Source: Bifidobacterium breve (lineage in GTDB: Bacteria; Acidobacteriota; Vicinamibacteria; Vicinamibacterales; CAVVIG01). From it: a DNA stretch of 40,552 nt. The position numbers and the translations under genes are program-made. Shown here piece after piece: positions 19,820 through 27,343 of the stretch (positions are counted from its first letter, which is position 1; each line of letters starts with the position of its first letter). The stretch spans positions 1 through 40,552 of the forward strand of contig CALQBJ020000006.1 of NCBI GenBank assembly GCA_943328785.2, given 5' to 3'. The notes beneath the pieces were generated by a model. That model worked only from the letters and a program-made list of their open reading frames with translations, made no database searches and was not told the DNA's origin.

Positions 19820-19965
19820 CGGCTTCCTGCTGGGTCGTGCGGGTAGTTGGGACCCGGCGGGAAGTTGGTTCGCGCGACTTCGGCCGGCTCGCGGCCGGGT
19901 TGACGCGTTTTGCCGCGTGAATCGAGGCCGTGTGGGGTGGCATCGGCCCTGCCTCAGCTTTGGGC

Positions 19966-20199
19966 ATGCGAGGAGCAGAGAGCCAGGGCAGGCGGAGCCT
20001 GCTGATCGACGACGCCGCGGTGTTACTGGGAGTGTCGCGGAGAACGATCTACTACAGGATTCGTGAAGGACGGCTTGAGACCGTGCGGACGCTCGGCGGC
20101 TCGCAACGGGTGCTGCTCGGGTCGATCGAGCAACTGCTGCGTCAGCGACGGCGACTGCCAGACCTGGCGGGTATTGGCGCGTTCGAGCCGGGGCTATAG
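19966..20199 (+). CDS. Small MerR-like/excisionase-type helix-turn-helix protein
   Basis: 77 aa from the ATG at 19966. Residues 10-60 are a compact winged helix: SLLIDDAAVLLGVSRRTIYY, then RIREGRLETVRTLGGSQRVL. This is the HTH_17/BldC-like fold that binds repeated DNA sites. There is no effector domain. The gene converges on the sigma-54 activator and the two coding regions overlap by 6 bp (20194-20199). It faces away from mntH. Target unknown; possible regulator of either neighbour. Confidence 0.75.
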   Translation: MRGAESQGRRSLLIDDAAVLLGVSRRTIYYRIREGRLETVRTLGGSQRVLLGSIEQLLRQRRRLPDLAGIGAFEPGL

Positions 20200-22884
20200 A
20201 CCGAGTCGCTGGCGTTTCAGGTACAGGCCCTTGCGCGAGATGCCGAGGGCCTTGGCGGCGGCTTCGACCTTGCCGTCGTTCTGACTCAGGGCGAGCTTGA
20301 TCATCTCGCGCTCGAGGGTGGCGACCGCGTGGTCGAGGCTGTCGGTGAGCGGGACGTTCAGTTCGAGTCCGCGCTCGCGGCGGCGCAACTGCTCGGTCTC
20401 CTCGCGCATCGCTTTCGGCAGGTGGTCGAGGGTCAGCGTGGCGTCAGTTTCCGCGGTGGCGACCATGCGGTTGAGCTCGTTGCTCAGTTGCCGGATGTTT
20501 CCCGGCCATGGGTAGACCACCAGGTGTTCCATCAGGTCGTCGGCGACGCGGATGCGTCCCTTGCCGAGTTCGTGGGACCACTTCAGGGCGAAGTGCTGGG
20601 CGAGCGGCGGAATCTCCTCGCGCCGTTCGCGCAGCGGCGGCAGTTCGAGCGGGATGACATTGAGGCGGTAGTACAGGTCCTCGCGGAAGCGTCCTTCCTG
20701 GACGAGCTTCTTCAGGTTCGCGTTGGTGGCGGCGACGATGCGGACGGTGACGCAGAAGGGGACGGTTTCACCTAGCGGGTTGATTTCGCCGGACTCGAGG
20801 AAGCGCAGCAGCTTGGGCTGCAGGTCGAGTCCGAGTTCGCCGACTTCATCGAGGAACAGTGTGCCGTCCTTGGCGGCCCTGATGAGGCCGGGGTTGTCGC
20901 GGTCGGCGCCAGTGAAGGCGCCCCGCTTGAAGCCAAACAGGTGGCTCTCGAGCAGTTCGCGCGGCACGGCCGTGCAGTTGAACGGAACGAACGGCTTCTT
21001 CGAGCGCTGGGAGTAGCGATGCACGGCGCGCGCGAGCACTTCCTTGCCGGTGCCACTTTCGCCGGTGATGAGCACCGTCACGTTGGTGGGCGCCACCTTG
21101 CGCGCATAGAGCATCACTTCGCGCATCTTGCCGGCCACCACGGAGTCGTCGTCTTCAGCGGGCAGCTCGTCGATGGGCCACAGCGTGAGTCGCTCTTCGC
21201 GTTCGAGGCGTGCGCGTTCGAGTTCCTGGCCAGCGGTGATGACGAAACCGGCGCTGTTCACGGCCGCGTGTGATTCGATGTCAGGGAGCGGCTGCAGCTG
21301 GAGCTCGATGTTGCGCCCGCGTGCGACGCCGACGATAAACGTCCGGACGTCGGCTGGCGCGGTTACCGCGCCCCAGGCCGCGAGCAACTCCTCGCGGTCG
21401 TCGGCATCTCGAGCAACTGCGCGCGCCGAGACGACGCAGTTGGCGTGTTGCAGGACGGAGACGAGGCTCGTCGCCGTGACTTCGGGGCGACTGGCGTGCA
21501 TCAGGAGAGAGGCGAAGCTCTGAAATTGCTGAGCATTGCTAATTGGGCCCAGCGTCAGAGCGGCCGGCACTGGCTTAGATGGACTGACGAGCTCCGCTGC
21601 GCAGCCCAGAGTCGAGTAGATACTTGCAGCACGAGAGAGGTTGTGACCGTCTACCGTCGGACCGGCAGCCGTTGCGAGTAAAGATGCGCCGATCGCCATC
21701 TCGTAGTGGGCAATGTGGCTTGGCGAGTTGTCTCCACGCAGCAGCGTGGCGAGCATATTCAGAAAACCAATAGACGCCTTGGCGCCAGACATTACAGCGG
21801 CGGCCTCGGCACACCGTGCGTAAGTCAACGCTTCGAGAGAACGGTCGCCAAGTTGGCGCGCGATTGTTAGCAGTTCTTCCGCTCTTGTTAGCGCCTCCAC
21901 CCACTGCTGTTGCTTCATTAGCAGCTCAACGCGCGTGAGGAGTGCGTACCTGCTTGAGTAGAGCAGTCGACCTGTGGGCGTTGAGATGTTCGCTTCAATG
22001 CGTTCGAGTAGAGAGTTAGCCTCCTCCCACGCGCCTTGGGCTAGATGAGTTCTTGCGAGGCTGTCCAAGCTGCCATTCGCGTGTTCCCCTGACGGCGAAA
22101 GCAGCTTATACGATTGTTGCAGCAACTCCTCGGCTGCGCGGTAGTCGCCTTTGAGATAGTGCAGATTGCCGAGGTTCGCGTATGCCGCTCTGAGGATAGC
22201 GGCGGCGCCGCTTTCCTGAGCCAAGTCGATGGCTCTTCGTGCGTGCTTCATTCCGCTGATAACATCAAACTGCAGGATCGCCAAGGCAGTCAGCGTGTTC
22301 TCCGACAGAGCATCCAACCAGATGTTGTCGCCGCTCTTCAGGAGACTCTGACCCAGAGCCGTATGGCGTCTCGCCATAGCCAGCAGACCGCGTTTGGCTT
22401 CAATCTCTCCAAGGAAAATATGTAGTCCGGCGCTGACCACGGGATCGCCCAGACGGAGAATGCTCTGCCTGGCCTCCTGCAGCAGTCGGCCAGAAGCCGG
22501 ACTCGGCGAATGCCCGGACACGCTGACGAGAAGGCGAAGCTGAGTCCATGCAGTGCGTCTGGCATCGCCAGCGTCACGTGAGGCGTCGATAGACGCCAGG
22601 AAGTGATCGGTAGCGGCTTCTGGCTGTCCTTTCTCCCATAGGAGCAAGCCCAGACAGAATTGGCTGACGCCCTTCTGGTCCGCACTGAGCGACTTGCTAC
22701 TTAGTAGTCGACGCGCGAGATTCTCAGCTTCCGAGTACCTGCCAAGTCGCTCAAGAAGTTCGAGCCGAAGCGTCTCGGCTTGAAGGGTGCGAGTCTTGAA
22801 GCTCGGCAGACTGTTCAGCTCAGCGTCAGCCGCCTTGAACCTACCTTGGGAAATCAGCGACTGCGTCTTTAGAAGTTCGTCCAT
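20194..22884 (-). CDS. Sigma-54 activator with N-terminal TPR sensor domain
   Basis: 896 aa. Residues about 1-480 are helical repeats of TPR type ('AAYANLGNLHYLKGDYRAAEEL', 'LARTHLAQGAWEEANSLLERI'), where most activators have a receiver or PAS domain. A short linker leads to the AAA+ domain: Walker A GESGTGKE (about 608), GAFTGA (about 653; the loop that contacts sigma-54), Walker B TLFLDEVGEL, the RFREDLYYRLNV sensor and the PWPGNIRQL motif. The C-terminal 40 residues are a Fis-type helix-turn-helix (AAAKALGISRKGLYLKRQRL). AAGGGGG precedes the ATG. GC content falls near residue 455: the AAA+ part is high-GC, the TPR part clearly lower. It is last in the row behind the HD-GYP and subtilase genes and probably activates them. 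Confidence 0.92.
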   Translation of the reverse strand: MDELLKTQSLISQGRFKAADAELNSLPSFKTRTLQAETLRLELLERLGRYSEAENLARRLLSSKSLSADQKGVSQFCLGLLLWEKGQPEAATDHFLASIDASRDAGDARRTAWTQLRLLVSVSGHSPSPASGRLLQEARQSILRLGDPVVSAGLHIFLGEIEAKRGLLAMARRHTALGQSLLKSGDNIWLDALSENTLTALAILQFDVISGMKHARRAIDLAQESGAAAILRAAYANLGNLHYLKGDYRAAEELLQQSYKLLSPSGEHANGSLDSLARTHLAQGAWEEANSLLERIEANISTPTGRLLYSSRYALLTRVELLMKQQQWVEALTRAEELLTIARQLGDRSLEALTYARCAEAAAVMSGAKASIGFLNMLATLLRGDNSPSHIAHYEMAIGASLLATAAGPTVDGHNLSRAASIYSTLGCAAELVSPSKPVPAALTLGPISNAQQFQSFASLLMHASRPEVTATSLVSVLQHANCVVSARAVARDADDREELLAAWGAVTAPADVRTFIVGVARGRNIELQLQPLPDIESHAAVNSAGFVITAGQELERARLEREERLTLWPIDELPAEDDDSVVAGKMREVMLYARKVAPTNVTVLITGESGTGKEVLARAVHRYSQRSKKPFVPFNCTAVPRELLESHLFGFKRGAFTGADRDNPGLIRAAKDGTLFLDEVGELGLDLQPKLLRFLESGEINPLGETVPFCVTVRIVAATNANLKKLVQEGRFREDLYYRLNVIPLELPPLRERREEIPPLAQHFALKWSHELGKGRIRVADDLMEHLVVYPWPGNIRQLSNELNRMVATAETDATLTLDHLPKAMREETEQLRRRERGLELNVPLTDSLDHAVATLEREMIKLALSQNDGKVEAAAKALGISRKGLYLKRQRLGL

Positions 22885-23006: not shown

Positions 23007-25352
23007 TTAGTGGACGCGGTGGTGGGAGCCGTGAAACTGGGGTGCGAGGTCGCGGATGTCGCCTGGCAGCAAGTCGGACAGGGCAGCGGAGTCACTGGGG
23101 GCCATGATGACGTCGACGGCCACCTCGAGCCTGACGCCTTCTCCGGAGCGTTCGAGATCCCAGACCGCCTTTCGCAGGTGGCGAGCTAGAGCTCGAACAT
23201 CTTTGGCCTCGCCGCTTGCGAGGAGAGCCACAAACTCCTCGTCACGGTTGCGAACAAGTAGATCGCCTACCGAGAGGGACTCACGTATCAGTGCCCCCAC
23301 GCGAGCCACGAGGGATTCAGCCGAGTCTTCGCCCACCTGACGCTGTATGTCAGACCAATTGAGCATCTCGATGCAGAGGACCGATGACACGGGGGCCAGC
23401 GCATCAACCGGTGGCCGAGTGGCCTGCTCCCGAGTTGGCGAGAGGTTCCGTTGATGCGCAAGCCGAGTCGCGAAGAGTCTGCCGATGGTCTCCAGGCGCG
23501 CACGGTCGGCTTCACTAAACGGAGCTTCCCGATATACGGAGAGAACTCCGAGCAGGTCACGCCCACCCAAGACGGGAACCGACAGCGTGTTGTTCAGTGA
23601 AACGCCAGGGCGCCGAGCGTAGTCGCCGAGATCCAGCGCCGGATCGCTGTTAAGGATGGTGCGTCTATTGGCGCCAACCCAGCCGCTGAGACGCTCGCCG
23701 AGGCCGATGGTAAGCGCATTCAGGTGGATGGAGCCCTGTGGCGACGTGGAAGCCACCACGAGATGATCATCAATCGCGTCGTAGGCAAACAGTATGGCAA
23801 GGTCTGCGTTGAGCAGATTACAGACCTGCGACCCAAGCACCACGGCGTCAGACAACGCGTGATCATGGAGTGCCAGTTCGGTCTCGACGGGAAGCCCGCC
23901 GTCCGTCTCTTGGACTTGGGCATTGTCGGCGGTAGCCAAGGGCTCCCGTCCACTCACGCTTGAGCTGGTTATCTCCGTCAATGCCCCCTTCGACAACGTG
24001 CTGTTAGTCGGACCCTCAGGCGCAATCTCGCGATGGACTCGTATAAAAGTGTCGACCACCAAGGGATCGTACATCGAGCCGCGCCGCTCGATGAGGATGT
24101 CCAAAGCCTCCTGGTCGCTTAGCTTAGGGCGATAGGGCCTGTCCGAAGTCAGCGCATCGAAGCAATCGACAACCGAGAGAATTCGCGCGCCGATCGGGAT
24201 GTCCGTTCCTCGGATTCCCGTTGGATATCCTGAGCCATCCCAGTTCTCGTGATGGTGTCTGACGATCGGAACCACCGGATATGGAAAGTCGATTGCCGAG
24301 AGAATGTCGGCGCCGACCCCGGCGTGAAGCTTCATCTTCTCAAACTCAGCGGGAGTAAGCGTCCCGGGCTTGTTCAAGATGTGCTCGGGGACGGCGAGCT
24401 TTCCCATGTCATGGAGAAGCGCCGCTGCCTCAATCGCCTTAAGTAGTTGGTCGTCCGTCACGCCGACGTGTTTGGCGAGTCCGACGGCATAGATCTGAAC
24501 GCGGCGGATATGCCCATGGGTGATCTGATCTTTGGCGTCGATTGCCATCGCCAGTGTCTCGATGGTCGACAGGTAAAGGCGGTTTAGCTCAGACAGATGG
24601 TTGTAGCTGTCTTCAGCGCGTCCCATCGCCGTTCTGAAAGTCAGGTACGACACCACGAGCAGCGGCACGATGACCGCCAGCGTGCTGAGGTCGAGTCGCT
24701 GTGTGTAGGTGACGATCAGTGCTGCCACGGAGGCGCCACTGAAGTAGTTGACGGACAACCAAGCGAAGTTCTTCCACCAAATCTGGACGGCAGAGCGTCG
24801 TGTTTCGAGGCCAACCGCGACTGCGACTAGCCAACTGTTGAATAGAAAGTAGGCAGCCGTGAAGGCAAGCAATGGGACAAACAGCCGTGGGAGCGGGGTA
24901 AAGACCTCGCTATAGGGATGAATTCCGGAGAGCAAGTAAAAGCACGATCCAGCCGTCCAGATAGCGACGGACGGAGCGGCCAGGTTGAAGGCCATCCTGT
25001 ACAGTGGACGACCCTGAGGCTTCATCCAGAGAAGGATAACTAGGCACTCGAGCAGTACCGTGACGGTGCCTGCCTCTGCTCCGAATAGCAGAACGGAGGC
25101 GAAGACGAATGCCTCGGAGACGGAGATATAGGCGTTGATGGAAGGGACCTTAACCGAGAACGATCCTGTCAGGATCGTCAGACCGGCCAAAAGGAGCCAT
25201 TCCGACCCGATCGGGCGAATGAATAGTTGATGGACCGAGAGTCCTAGGACCAGCGCGCCAATTGCCACGACGCCGCTGACATATATGCGGACTGTCGGTC
25301 TGAGGCTAAGAAAGTGTTCCATGTGAGCCGCGAACAAAACGCTCCGGCTCAT
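23007..25352 (-). CDS. Membrane HD-GYP phosphodiesterase with GAF and degenerate GGDEF domains
   Basis: 781 aa. Residues 20-240 carry about seven membrane helices, a MASE-type sensor module. The HD-GYP domain (about 260-440) has HDMGKLAVP (His314-Asp315) and HHHENWDGSGYP (366-377), all residues for c-di-GMP hydrolysis. A GAF domain follows (about 500-650, 'GLGERLSGWVGANRRTILNS', 'LSVPVLGGRDLLGVLSVYRE'). The last 110 residues have GGDEF-domain flanks (GDLLVR....EEFVALLASG) but the signature is NRDEEF, so it cannot make c-di-GMP; it may bind GTP or be structural. An ATG at 25322 is an alternative start. The start lies 11 nt after a 9-codon ORF, and the gene is 122 bp ahead of the sigma-54 activator. 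Confidence 0.9.
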   Translation of the reverse strand: MSRSVLFAAHMEHFLSLRPTVRIYVSGVVAIGALVLGLSVHQLFIRPIGSEWLLLAGLTILTGSFSVKVPSINAYISVSEAFVFASVLLFGAEAGTVTVLLECLVILLWMKPQGRPLYRMAFNLAAPSVAIWTAGSCFYLLSGIHPYSEVFTPLPRLFVPLLAFTAAYFLFNSWLVAVAVGLETRRSAVQIWWKNFAWLSVNYFSGASVAALIVTYTQRLDLSTLAVIVPLLVVSYLTFRTAMGRAEDSYNHLSELNRLYLSTIETLAMAIDAKDQITHGHIRRVQIYAVGLAKHVGVTDDQLLKAIEAAALLHDMGKLAVPEHILNKPGTLTPAEFEKMKLHAGVGADILSAIDFPYPVVPIVRHHHENWDGSGYPTGIRGTDIPIGARILSVVDCFDALTSDRPYRPKLSDQEALDILIERRGSMYDPLVVDTFIRVHREIAPEGPTNSTLSKGALTEITSSSVSGREPLATADNAQVQETDGGLPVETELALHDHALSDAVVLGSQVCNLLNADLAILFAYDAIDDHLVVASTSPQGSIHLNALTIGLGERLSGWVGANRRTILNSDPALDLGDYARRPGVSLNNTLSVPVLGGRDLLGVLSVYREAPFSEADRARLETIGRLFATRLAHQRNLSPTREQATRPPVDALAPVSSVLCIEMLNWSDIQRQVGEDSAESLVARVGALIRESLSVGDLLVRNRDEEFVALLASGEAKDVRALARHLRKAVWDLERSGEGVRLEVAVDVIMAPSDSAALSDLLPGDIRDLAPQFHGSHHRVH

Positions 25353-25363
25353 CCCTTATCGGC

Positions 25364-25393
25364 TCAATCGCCCCAGATGATTACGTTCAGCAT
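25364..25393 (-). CDS. Nine-codon ORF MLNVIIWGD, matching the subtilase repeat
   Basis: ATG at 25393 to TGA at 25364-25366. The peptide MLNVIIWGD contains the same N-x-I-I-W-G-D/S core as the 13 repeats at the end of the subtilase just upstream (51 bp away), but it is in its own reading frame with its own start and stop. A very strong double purine tract (GAAGGAGTTGAAGG) lies directly before the ATG. Its stop is 11 nt from the HD-GYP ATG, so it may couple translation of that gene. It could be a stand-alone peptide, a leader, or the leftover last repeat of a formerly longer subtilase. The last is possible, but a frame-independent start with this ribosome-binding site argues for translation. 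Confidence 0.5.
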   Translation of the reverse strand: MLNVIIWGD

Positions 25394-25443
25394 TCCTTCA
25401 ACTCCTTCGAAGGCGAGCGAATGGGCCCGCATAAGGGTTCCCT

Positions 25444-27204
25444 CTAGCTTCCCCAGATGATCGTTTCTGCGAGCCCACCTCCCCAGATGATGGTCGAGCC
25501 CAAGACGGAACCGCCCCAAACGATGGTGTTGCCCACGACGTTGCTACCCCAGATAATGGTGTCGGCCCCAGTCCCCCAAGCGATGGTGCTGCCCCAGATG
25601 ATGGTGTCAGCCGAACCCCAAATGATGGTCTCTGCCGCGGCGCCCCAGATGATGGTGTTGCCCCAGATGATCGTGTCTGCGCTGGATCCCCAAACGATTG
25701 TGCTGCCCCAGATGATGGTGTCAGCCGAACCCCAGATGATGGTGTTGCCACGTAGTGCCGCGTTGCCCCAGATGATGGTGCTGCTCGAAGCAATTGACTG
25801 CCGCCTGCGACCCGCTGGGTTTAGAAAGGCGATGCCGCTCGCTCGGGTCGCCTCTCCCGCAACGACGTTCTCGCTGAACGCGTCCTTCGGCATCGCTGCG
25901 AATCGAGCCGCAGCGACGCTGTTGAGCGCCCCCGCGCCCGCGGTCACAAGCCCTTCGCCGTGGATCGGCGAACTCGTGAGCTGGAGAGCCACCTTAACGG
26001 CCGAAGGCGTCAGCCGCGGTTTCTCATCCAGCAGCAGCGCCACCGCACCACTCGTCACCCCCGCCGCCATGCTCGTGCCAGACAGCGCCATGTAGGCGTC
26101 CGCGCCCGCGCCGGCCACGTGCCGCTCCGGATACTGCGTCGCCAGGTAGGAACCCGCCGCCTCGGCCGACACCAGCCGGCTGCCCGGCGCCACCAGGTCC
26201 GGCTTGATCACCAGGTCGAACAGCGTCGGCCCCTTCGAGCTGTACTTCGCCACGGTGTCGTCAGACCGCTTCGCGGTGGCGTGCATGTCGACAGCACCAA
26301 CCGTCAGCGCCGCCGGGTCGTTACCGGGCGACGTCACGCTGCCGAACACCAGCGCACCCTCCGGCGTCACGCCGTAGTTGCCGGCCGCCGCCACCACCAC
26401 CAGCCCCGCCGAGACCGCGCGCTCCACGGCTTCGCACAGCGGGTCGTCCTTGTACGACTGCACCACCGGTGCGCCGAGCGACAGGTTGATGATGCGGATG
26501 TTGAACGCGGCGCGGTGCTCGATGGCCCAGTCAATGGCGTCGACTACGTCGCTCGCCCGCCCCGCACCCTGCGCGTTCAGCACGCGAAGATTGATCAGCC
26601 GCGCCGCCGGTGCCACACCGCGGTAGTCGGCGGTGTCCGCCCCGGTGCCCGCGCCGCCGGCAATCAACGCGCCCACGTGGGTGCCGTGACCGTAGGCATC
26701 GGAGCCGTCGCCCCCAGTGAAGTCCTTCGTGTAGACGACACGGTTGGCGAGGGCGGCGTGACGCCGGTCGATGCCCGAATCGATCAGGGCGACGCCAATG
26801 CCCGCACCGGACAGCGGCCTGACGTTCGCCACACCAGCCCAGACCTGGTCAGCGCCGATGCTCTCGGTGACGAGGCTGGATGACCGCACCGCGACGTCGG
26901 CGGACAGGTGGTCGACCGATACGTCCTGCGACAGCGCGTCCAGTTGGCCGGCGTTCACGTCGAGCACGGCGCCCGATTTCAAGTAGCGGCGCACCCGCAG
27001 GCTGTAACGGCGCGCGAGCGCGTCGACCTCGGTGCGGTTGCCATGCACGATCACATCGATCGACTGGGAACCCGCGGCCAGCGTCCGCTCCAGATCCGCG
27101 CCAAGCCGCGCCCGGTGCGCGGCCTCGGCCGGTGCGCAGAGCCAGGTCGTAGACGCGAGCGTCAAGGCCAGGGCAGAACGCCTGACGAATCGAAAGCTAG
27201 CCAT
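25444..27204 (-). CDS. Secreted S8 subtilisin-like protease with C-terminal T-I-I-W-G repeats
   Basis: 586 aa from the ATG at 27204 (GGAG 8 nt upstream; an ATG at 27255 would put 17 residues before the signal peptide). Signal peptide about 1-29. A prodomain (about 45-105, I9/fervidolysin-like) precedes the S8 domain: Asp142 (ALIDSGID), His173 (YGHGTHVGAL), Asn276 (AAAGNYG) and Ser378 (LSGTSMAAG), the complete catalytic set. Residues 476-586 consist of 13 copies of [DNES]-T-I-[IVA]-W-G-[SNATG] with short Ala/Gly/Val spacers. Such tails might stack as beta strands, anchor the enzyme, or be cut out as peptides; none is established. First gene after a sigma-54 promoter candidate and head of the row that ends in the sigma-54 activator. 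Confidence 0.92.
   Translation of the reverse strand: MASFRFVRRSALALTLASTTWLCAPAEAAHRARLGADLERTLAAGSQSIDVIVHGNRTEVDALARRYSLRVRRYLKSGAVLDVNAGQLDALSQDVSVDHLSADVAVRSSSLVTESIGADQVWAGVANVRPLSGAGIGVALIDSGIDRRHAALANRVVYTKDFTGGDGSDAYGHGTHVGALIAGGAGTGADTADYRGVAPAARLINLRVLNAQGAGRASDVVDAIDWAIEHRAAFNIRIINLSLGAPVVQSYKDDPLCEAVERAVSAGLVVVAAAGNYGVTPEGALVFGSVTSPGNDPAALTVGAVDMHATAKRSDDTVAKYSSKGPTLFDLVIKPDLVAPGSRLVSAEAAGSYLATQYPERHVAGAGADAYMALSGTSMAAGVTSGAVALLLDEKPRLTPSAVKVALQLTSSPIHGEGLVTAGAGALNSVAAARFAAMPKDAFSENVVAGEATRASGIAFLNPAGRRRQSIASSSTIIWGNAALRGNTIIWGSADTIIWGSTIVWGSSADTIIWGNTIIWGAAAETIIWGSADTIIWGSTIAWGTGADTIIWGSNVVGNTIVWGGSVLGSTIIWGGGLAETIIWGS
25447..25786 (-). repeat. Coding repeat array, 13 copies of a CCCCAGATGATGGTG-like unit
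   Basis: Seen on the plus strand as variants of CCCCAGATGATGGTG at irregular spacing of 15-36 bp. All copies keep the subtilase reading frame, and third positions vary (GATGAT, GATAAT, AACGAT, AGCGAT), so the array is under protein-level selection. The irregular spacing rules out CRISPR. Confidence 0.9.
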
Positions 27205-27343
27205 CGAATGCTCCAGTGAACTCACGAAATGCGTTACGCGACGTCGGGGTCCCATGTCTCCGCGCTGTTCGTTCGCCTGGGTTCGACCGATAACCAGAAC
27301 GCCAGAAAAGCAGCGCGCGAGAAATTTCCGACACGGTATACAA

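Follow-up and report, generated by a model that had tools for sequence, protein, structure and literature searches.

Leader and coupling open reading frames (ORFs) of the TnaC and ErmCL type are very short, carry a strong ribosome-binding site (RBS) and lie just upstream of a gene that has none, and MccA of microcin C comes from a 7-codon gene that makes a peptide product. To our knowledge, the phylum Acidobacteriota, to which the DNA described here belongs, has almost no known cell-to-cell signalling. In the Firmicutes, the peptides of the LCP class are 8 to 10 amino acids long, and their ORFs have an RBS and lie next to the gene for a TPR regulator and, in Streptococcus pyogenes, also that for a secreted protease (PMC10518010). 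In SIP/RopB of S. pyogenes the leaderless peptide has 8 residues and is joined by a TPR regulator and a secreted protease (PMC10518010).

The window analysed here, a stretch of 40,552 nucleotides, contains a short ORF that resembles the LCP genes in outline. The members of its family at the main locus have 7 to 9 codons and neither a leader nor secretion or processing signals, a Shine-Dalgarno match of at least 4 nt precedes the ORF in 32 of the 36 aligned loci (compared with 17% of random ATG or GTG codons), the core of the peptide is aliphatic and aromatic, and the genes for a TPR-containing transcription regulator and, as in S. pyogenes, a secreted protease lie close by. The system differs from the LCPs in that its TPR domain is fused to a sigma54 AAA+ activator rather than to a RopB-type DNA-binding domain, and the regulator is not of the RopB/Rgg-homologous RRNPPA type, with an HTH and a C-terminal TPR domain. 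It also differs in its phylum, in the presence of HD-GYP and oligopeptide importer genes in the locus, and in the repetition of the core motif in the tail of the protease. These sequence comparisons are best read as pointing to a system that would work like LCP/RopB but is not a member of the LCP class and has a regulator that is not a RopB homolog.

The ORF lies on the minus strand (25393..25364) and reads CGAAGGAGTTGAAGGA ATG CTG AAC GTA ATC ATC TGG GGC GAT TGA, encoding MLNVIIWGD. Upstream is the gene for a secreted subtilase (Peptidase_S8; 25444..27255, minus strand), whose stop codon (25446..25444) is 50 nt from the ORF start and in a different frame. Downstream, also on the minus strand (23007..25352), is the gene for an HD-GYP c-di-GMP phosphodiesterase-like protein with a membrane N-terminus, an HD_5 domain, a GAF domain and a degenerate GGDEF domain. 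Its first possible ATG (25352) is 11 nt beyond the end of the ORF, and a likelier one (25322) is 41 nt beyond it; the latter aligns with the starts of orthologs and is probably the one used. A Shine-Dalgarno site, AGGAG (25402..25406, minus strand), is located 8 nt 5' of the ORF start. The preliminary description of this DNA had placed the ORF correctly and had noted that gene finders miss a gene of nine codons, which is the case, but the double RBS that it proposed is reduced to one well-spaced site, since the second element, GAAGGA, touches the start codon. The genome from which the window comes has a single copy of the ORF. From the peptide-level constraint, the Shine-Dalgarno site and stop codon belonging to the ORF itself, and the conserved gene order, all set out below, we infer that a free peptide is encoded; the ORF is very probably a genuine ultrashort gene for a leaderless peptide of 9 residues.

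Relatives of the window were collected in two ways. An unbiased set was obtained by searching for the HD-GYP gene in 60 relatives, with no peptide pattern used to choose loci, and consists of 17 loci from other genomes in which a repeat-tailed subtilase lies directly upstream of HD-GYP. An ORF of the same kind, with 7 to 9 codons, was found in 13 of these 17 orthologous gaps, with the peptides MVAVIIWGD, MKTLIVWGE, MSRLIIWED, (V)RTLIVWGN, MKTIFVWD, MKRIIVWD, MQKIIVWD, MRIIAWGS, MAKLIIWGE, (V)RTLIIWGE, MSRLIIWGE, MHPIIVWN and MSIVVWG; the other four gaps (L023 to L026) have no short ORF. Pattern searches of 193 genomes of the class gave matches in 31 for the 9-codon pattern and in 5 for an 8-codon W-D/N pattern, and both patterns, when reversed, gave none. 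Two of the 9-codon matches (one in G070, and the second of those in G123) were set aside as chance, having TGG where the stop was expected. Additional matches to I[IV]WG[DNE]-stop were likewise rejected: L107, L109 and L111 are C-termini of subtilases, L108 resembles a partial one, and L110 and L112 are chance. Taken together, the pattern matches, the divergent forms from the unbiased set and one further genome (G184) amount to about 39 of the 193 genomes with a member, spread over six family-level groups and nearly always with one copy each. Pattern searches of 396 genomes of the phylum revealed no family member outside the class, only one chance match without the context. The taxonomic placing of members rests on loci named Acidobacteria (one of them "gp6") and on kinship codes. 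The ORFs nearly always have the same neighbors, the secreted protease on one side and the signalling genes on the other, and on a quick tree of the HD-GYP proteins the short ORF is grouped along deep branches and was seldom lost or gained.

The family consensus is M-x-x-L-I-[IV]-W-G-[D/E]-stop, and 29 of the 36 loci have exactly nine codons. In these, residue 4 is L, V or I, residue 5 is I, residue 6 is I or V, residue 7 is W, residue 8 is G (E in one case) and residue 9 is E or D (N in one case), although for the copies found by pattern the search required I, W and G, so that their invariance is partly built in. The pattern did not require freedom at third codon positions, a Shine-Dalgarno site, the position of the ORF or its start. 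The synonymous codons vary widely, with Leu encoded by CTA, CTG, CTC, CTT, TTG or TTA and Ile by ATC, ATT or ATA, and so do the codons for the last residue (GAA, GAG, GAC or GAT) and the stops (TAA, TAG or TGA). Among 21 pairs of loci that have the same peptide and differing DNA, 47 of the 49 differences fall at third codon positions and 2 at first positions. Column identity is 0.75 to 0.85 in codons 4 to 8, compared with 0.26, the level expected by chance, in the flanks.

The end of the ORF in the window is overlapped by a putative sigma-28-like promoter (25356-25383), which consists of a putative -35 element, TAAT (25380..25383, minus strand), and a putative -10 element, GCCGATAA (25356..25363, minus strand), directly 3' of the ORF stop and probably serving HD-GYP. 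The arrangement TAAT-N15/16-(G)CCGATA is found in 13 of the 29 nine-codon loci, the window having the form TAAT-N16-GCCGATA; in all 13, the last base of codon 4 and codon 5 make up TAAT, which lies 16-17 nt before CCGATA, and the (G)CCGATA box comes after the stop. The third base of codon 4 is A in 13/13 loci with the -10 box and in 2/16 without it (Fisher p = 1.8e-6, a value that ignores shared ancestry). FliA-family sigma factors are present in the genome, although the assignment to sigma-28 is tentative, since the full pattern occurs at only 3 sites in the genome compared with 1 for the control. If it is right, HD-GYP transcription could begin just past the ORF. One relative (L066) has a CCGATAA box on both sides of its short ORF. 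The box, the bias at codon 4 and the FliA-type factors might be taken to mean that the ORF is not a gene and that the DNA is kept because it holds this promoter, but that view is contradicted for half of the loci: the 16 nine-codon loci without the -10 box keep the peptide while their synonymous codons vary freely, identity falls to 0.26 past the stop in the loci that lack the box (19, with all ORF lengths included), and the Shine-Dalgarno sites are conserved. We regard a promoter without a gene as very improbable.

The C-terminal tail of the subtilase (25447..25791, minus strand) consists of 13 units of the form (T)I-x-W-G. The ORF shares I-I-W-G with the tail and lies in a separate frame, as the preliminary description had noted. 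The residue after I-x-W-G is D in none of the 13 units, unlike in the short ORF. An AF2 prediction for the tail, a repeat with a shallow alignment, gave a pLDDT near 25, no secondary structure and no confident fold, and the literature offered nothing on the tail repeat strings. Tails in relatives, such as those of L015, L036, L079 and L098, are built of tandem hexa- to decapeptide repeats around one Trp, homogenised within species and different between species. The tail repeats drift from locus to locus, whereas the peptide stays LI[IV]WG[DE]: such peptides are found beside tails of IFWGQ (L033), ILWSD (L036), IIWSD (L093), IAWSD (L079) and TVWGD (L080), and in L020 the peptide MHPIIVWN lies beside a tail of IIWTD. 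This constancy next to tails that change to other repeat types refutes the suggestion, also made in the preliminary description, that the ORF is a remnant of a longer tail. In the relatives, the site proved not to be an uninterrupted extension of the subtilase frame, and the start and RBS turned out to be conserved, the Shine-Dalgarno site in 32 of the 36 loci. The I-I-W-G common to ORF and tail is what a chance ORF or a decayed tail end has in its favor, and against it stand the different frame, the conservation in six family-level groups, the ORF's own Shine-Dalgarno site and stop, and the lack of dependence on the local repeat type. An origin of this kind appears exceedingly improbable.

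In the main locus the ORF is always directly upstream of HD-GYP, and HD-GYP itself has a Shine-Dalgarno match of at least 4 nt in only 7 of 36 loci. This scarcity is why a translated leader ranks second among the readings: ribosomes loaded at the Shine-Dalgarno site of the ORF would terminate and then start again at HD-GYP, 20 to 80 nt downstream, or would stall on the nascent LIIWG, in either case acting only in cis. As in TnaC and ErmCL, an ORF with a strong RBS precedes an RBS-poor gene, and in some loci a hairpin lies between them; that of the window, GAGCCG...CGGCTC (25323..25351, minus strand), is located between the promoter-like element and the likely start of HD-GYP. In several loci the ATG of HD-GYP is closely preceded by a stable hairpin, with z of -2 or lower in 9 of 36, but many others lack it and the mean z is -1.15, so that we rejected a conserved attenuator hairpin, and an Rfam scan of the region gave no match. 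The absence of a conserved RNA structure sets the locus apart from TnaC and ErmCL, as does the promoter-like element inside the ORF in many loci, which would start HD-GYP transcripts downstream of the ORF. The peptide, moreover, is fixed, although coupling does not call for particular amino acids; the distance from ORF to HD-GYP varies; W lies 1 to 3 codons before the stop (WG*, WD*, WGD*), so that the register is not fixed; and the likeness of the peptide to the tail motif is left unexplained. The translation-coupling role raised in the preliminary description is favored by the constant position before HD-GYP, the scarcity of Shine-Dalgarno sites at HD-GYP and the hairpins of several loci, and disfavored by the other points, and we consider it unlikely, although a serious candidate.

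Two genomes carry copies outside the main locus, and, as these copies have no HD-GYP, they argue against a role only as its leader. In one (L092; G022:C283, minus strand 2700-1), an HTH gene is followed by MSRVRRLIIWGD, MNVKTQIKAGSDGDTIVWGN, an HlyD gene and the gene for a C39-peptidase ABC transporter. The two short genes are of the IxWG[DN] type, with 12 and 20 codons, and the cassette is divergent from SBP_bac_5 and permease genes. This contig has no subtilase and no HD-GYP, and its gene content makes a peptide export cassette possible. The other (L106; G184:C1219) has two tandem 8-codon genes, 86 nt apart, which encode MKRIIWGD in both cases but use different codons. Between the twins lies a CCGATA box, and a transposase-like ORF lies upstream.

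Such copies suggest that the peptide could be an exported product, bacteriocin- or RiPP-like, or else a free subunit associating with the tail repeats of the subtilase. The export genes of L092 and the twin genes of L106 are consistent with this, and the peptide core equals one tail unit in most loci; like MccA, the family offers ultrashort genes for a peptide, one of them beside an exporter. However, linkage to an exporter is seen in one genome only, and the HlyD homologs of L092 in family f19 have no IxWG ORF beside them. The conserved neighborhood differs from that of MccA in lacking an MccB-like modifying enzyme, no modifying enzyme being found among the conserved genes (subtilase, HD-GYP, TPR-sigma54, HTH and importer), and the peptide does not track the changes in the tail. 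An exported product or tail partner therefore seems to us quite unlikely. Formation of a W-x-D cyclophane by a radical-SAM enzyme was considered and rejected, with no such gene among the conserved neighbors.

The remaining neighbors are consistent with a regulatory ligand. The subtilase, the ORF, HD-GYP and a TPR-sigma54 activator (20194..22884, minus strand) occur together in all short-ORF loci with enough flank, and many loci have an HTH gene upstream of the subtilase; its counterpart in the window, encoding a small HTH_17-like protein (19930..20199, plus strand), lies in relatives directly upstream of the subtilase. In seven loci (L033, L034, L038 and L096 to L099) divergent genes for SBP_bac_5 and two permeases, an oligopeptide ABC importer, lie upstream of the subtilase, where the window and its congener have a gene of the DHDPS family instead. 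Sigma54 promoters are no more frequent in the window than expected by chance, and a literature search gave nothing on a subtilase with HD-GYP in Acidobacteria.

The activator, our candidate for the peptide receptor, has an N-terminal TPR region, a sigma54 AAA+ domain and a Fis-type HTH, in that order. An AF2 model of the TPR region (residues 1 to 560) has a mean pLDDT of 87.7, and its best fold match (VIA-align) is Rap with pheromone (Z 28.2, 348 residues, 4.8 A). MalT domain III is level with Rap (Z 27.7), RapF, NprR, AimR and PlcR follow, and APC/C subunits are also listed. TPR superhelices resemble one another, and Rap is equalled in score by MalT and the APC/C subunits; the predicted fold thus appears as near to the peptide-receptor TPRs as to anything, though it is a common one. 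By sequence, the nearest solved chains in the PDB are Pins/LGN and designed TPRs, which are generic TPRs, and there was no RRNPPA chain among the matches.

Because the anatomy of the locus is the same in outline as that of the published LCP system, we rank first, tentatively and at somewhat less than an even chance, a leaderless peptide ligand of the TPR-sigma54 activator. The 3' end of the subtilase mRNA would most likely be the source of the peptide, which, either without leaving the cell or once released and taken up again, would serve as a ligand for the activator's TPR domain (the activator gene is two genes further along), thereby linking the secreted protease to c-di-GMP and to sigma54-controlled genes. 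The signal-peptide role put forward in the preliminary description is consequently the best supported of its proposals, through conservation at the level of the peptide, the presence of a TPR-sigma54 regulator and an oligopeptide importer in the locus, and the LCP precedent, although we only infer that the peptide is translated, released, taken up and bound, and likewise which genes it regulates. Against a ligand are the position of HD-GYP, which, rather than the TPR gene, directly adjoins the ORF and whose frequent lack of a Shine-Dalgarno site fits coupling; the importer, which is not adjacent in the genus of the window; the lack of a linked exporter in most loci; and the near-invariance of the peptide core across an order, a departure both from the LCPs and from species-specific pheromone codes. 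A fuller scheme, which we find somewhat doubtful, would make the peptide a Gram-negative-type leaderless signal of 8 or 9 residues read by the TPR-sigma54 protein, with the subtilase displaying a dozen copies of the motif as a decoy, reservoir or sensor and the oligopeptide importer serving re-uptake.

Genes this short are invisible to annotation, and the case for this one, built on conservation, codon usage and gene order, is unusually clear. Should the peptide bind the TPR-sigma54 regulator, the logic of RopB and the LCPs would exist outside the Firmicutes, in another class of regulator; should it be a leader instead, a c-di-GMP enzyme would be under the control of a conserved switch that works through the nascent peptide. 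Whichever reading holds, the conserved short gene offers a starting point for explaining the W-G repeat tails of these subtilases.
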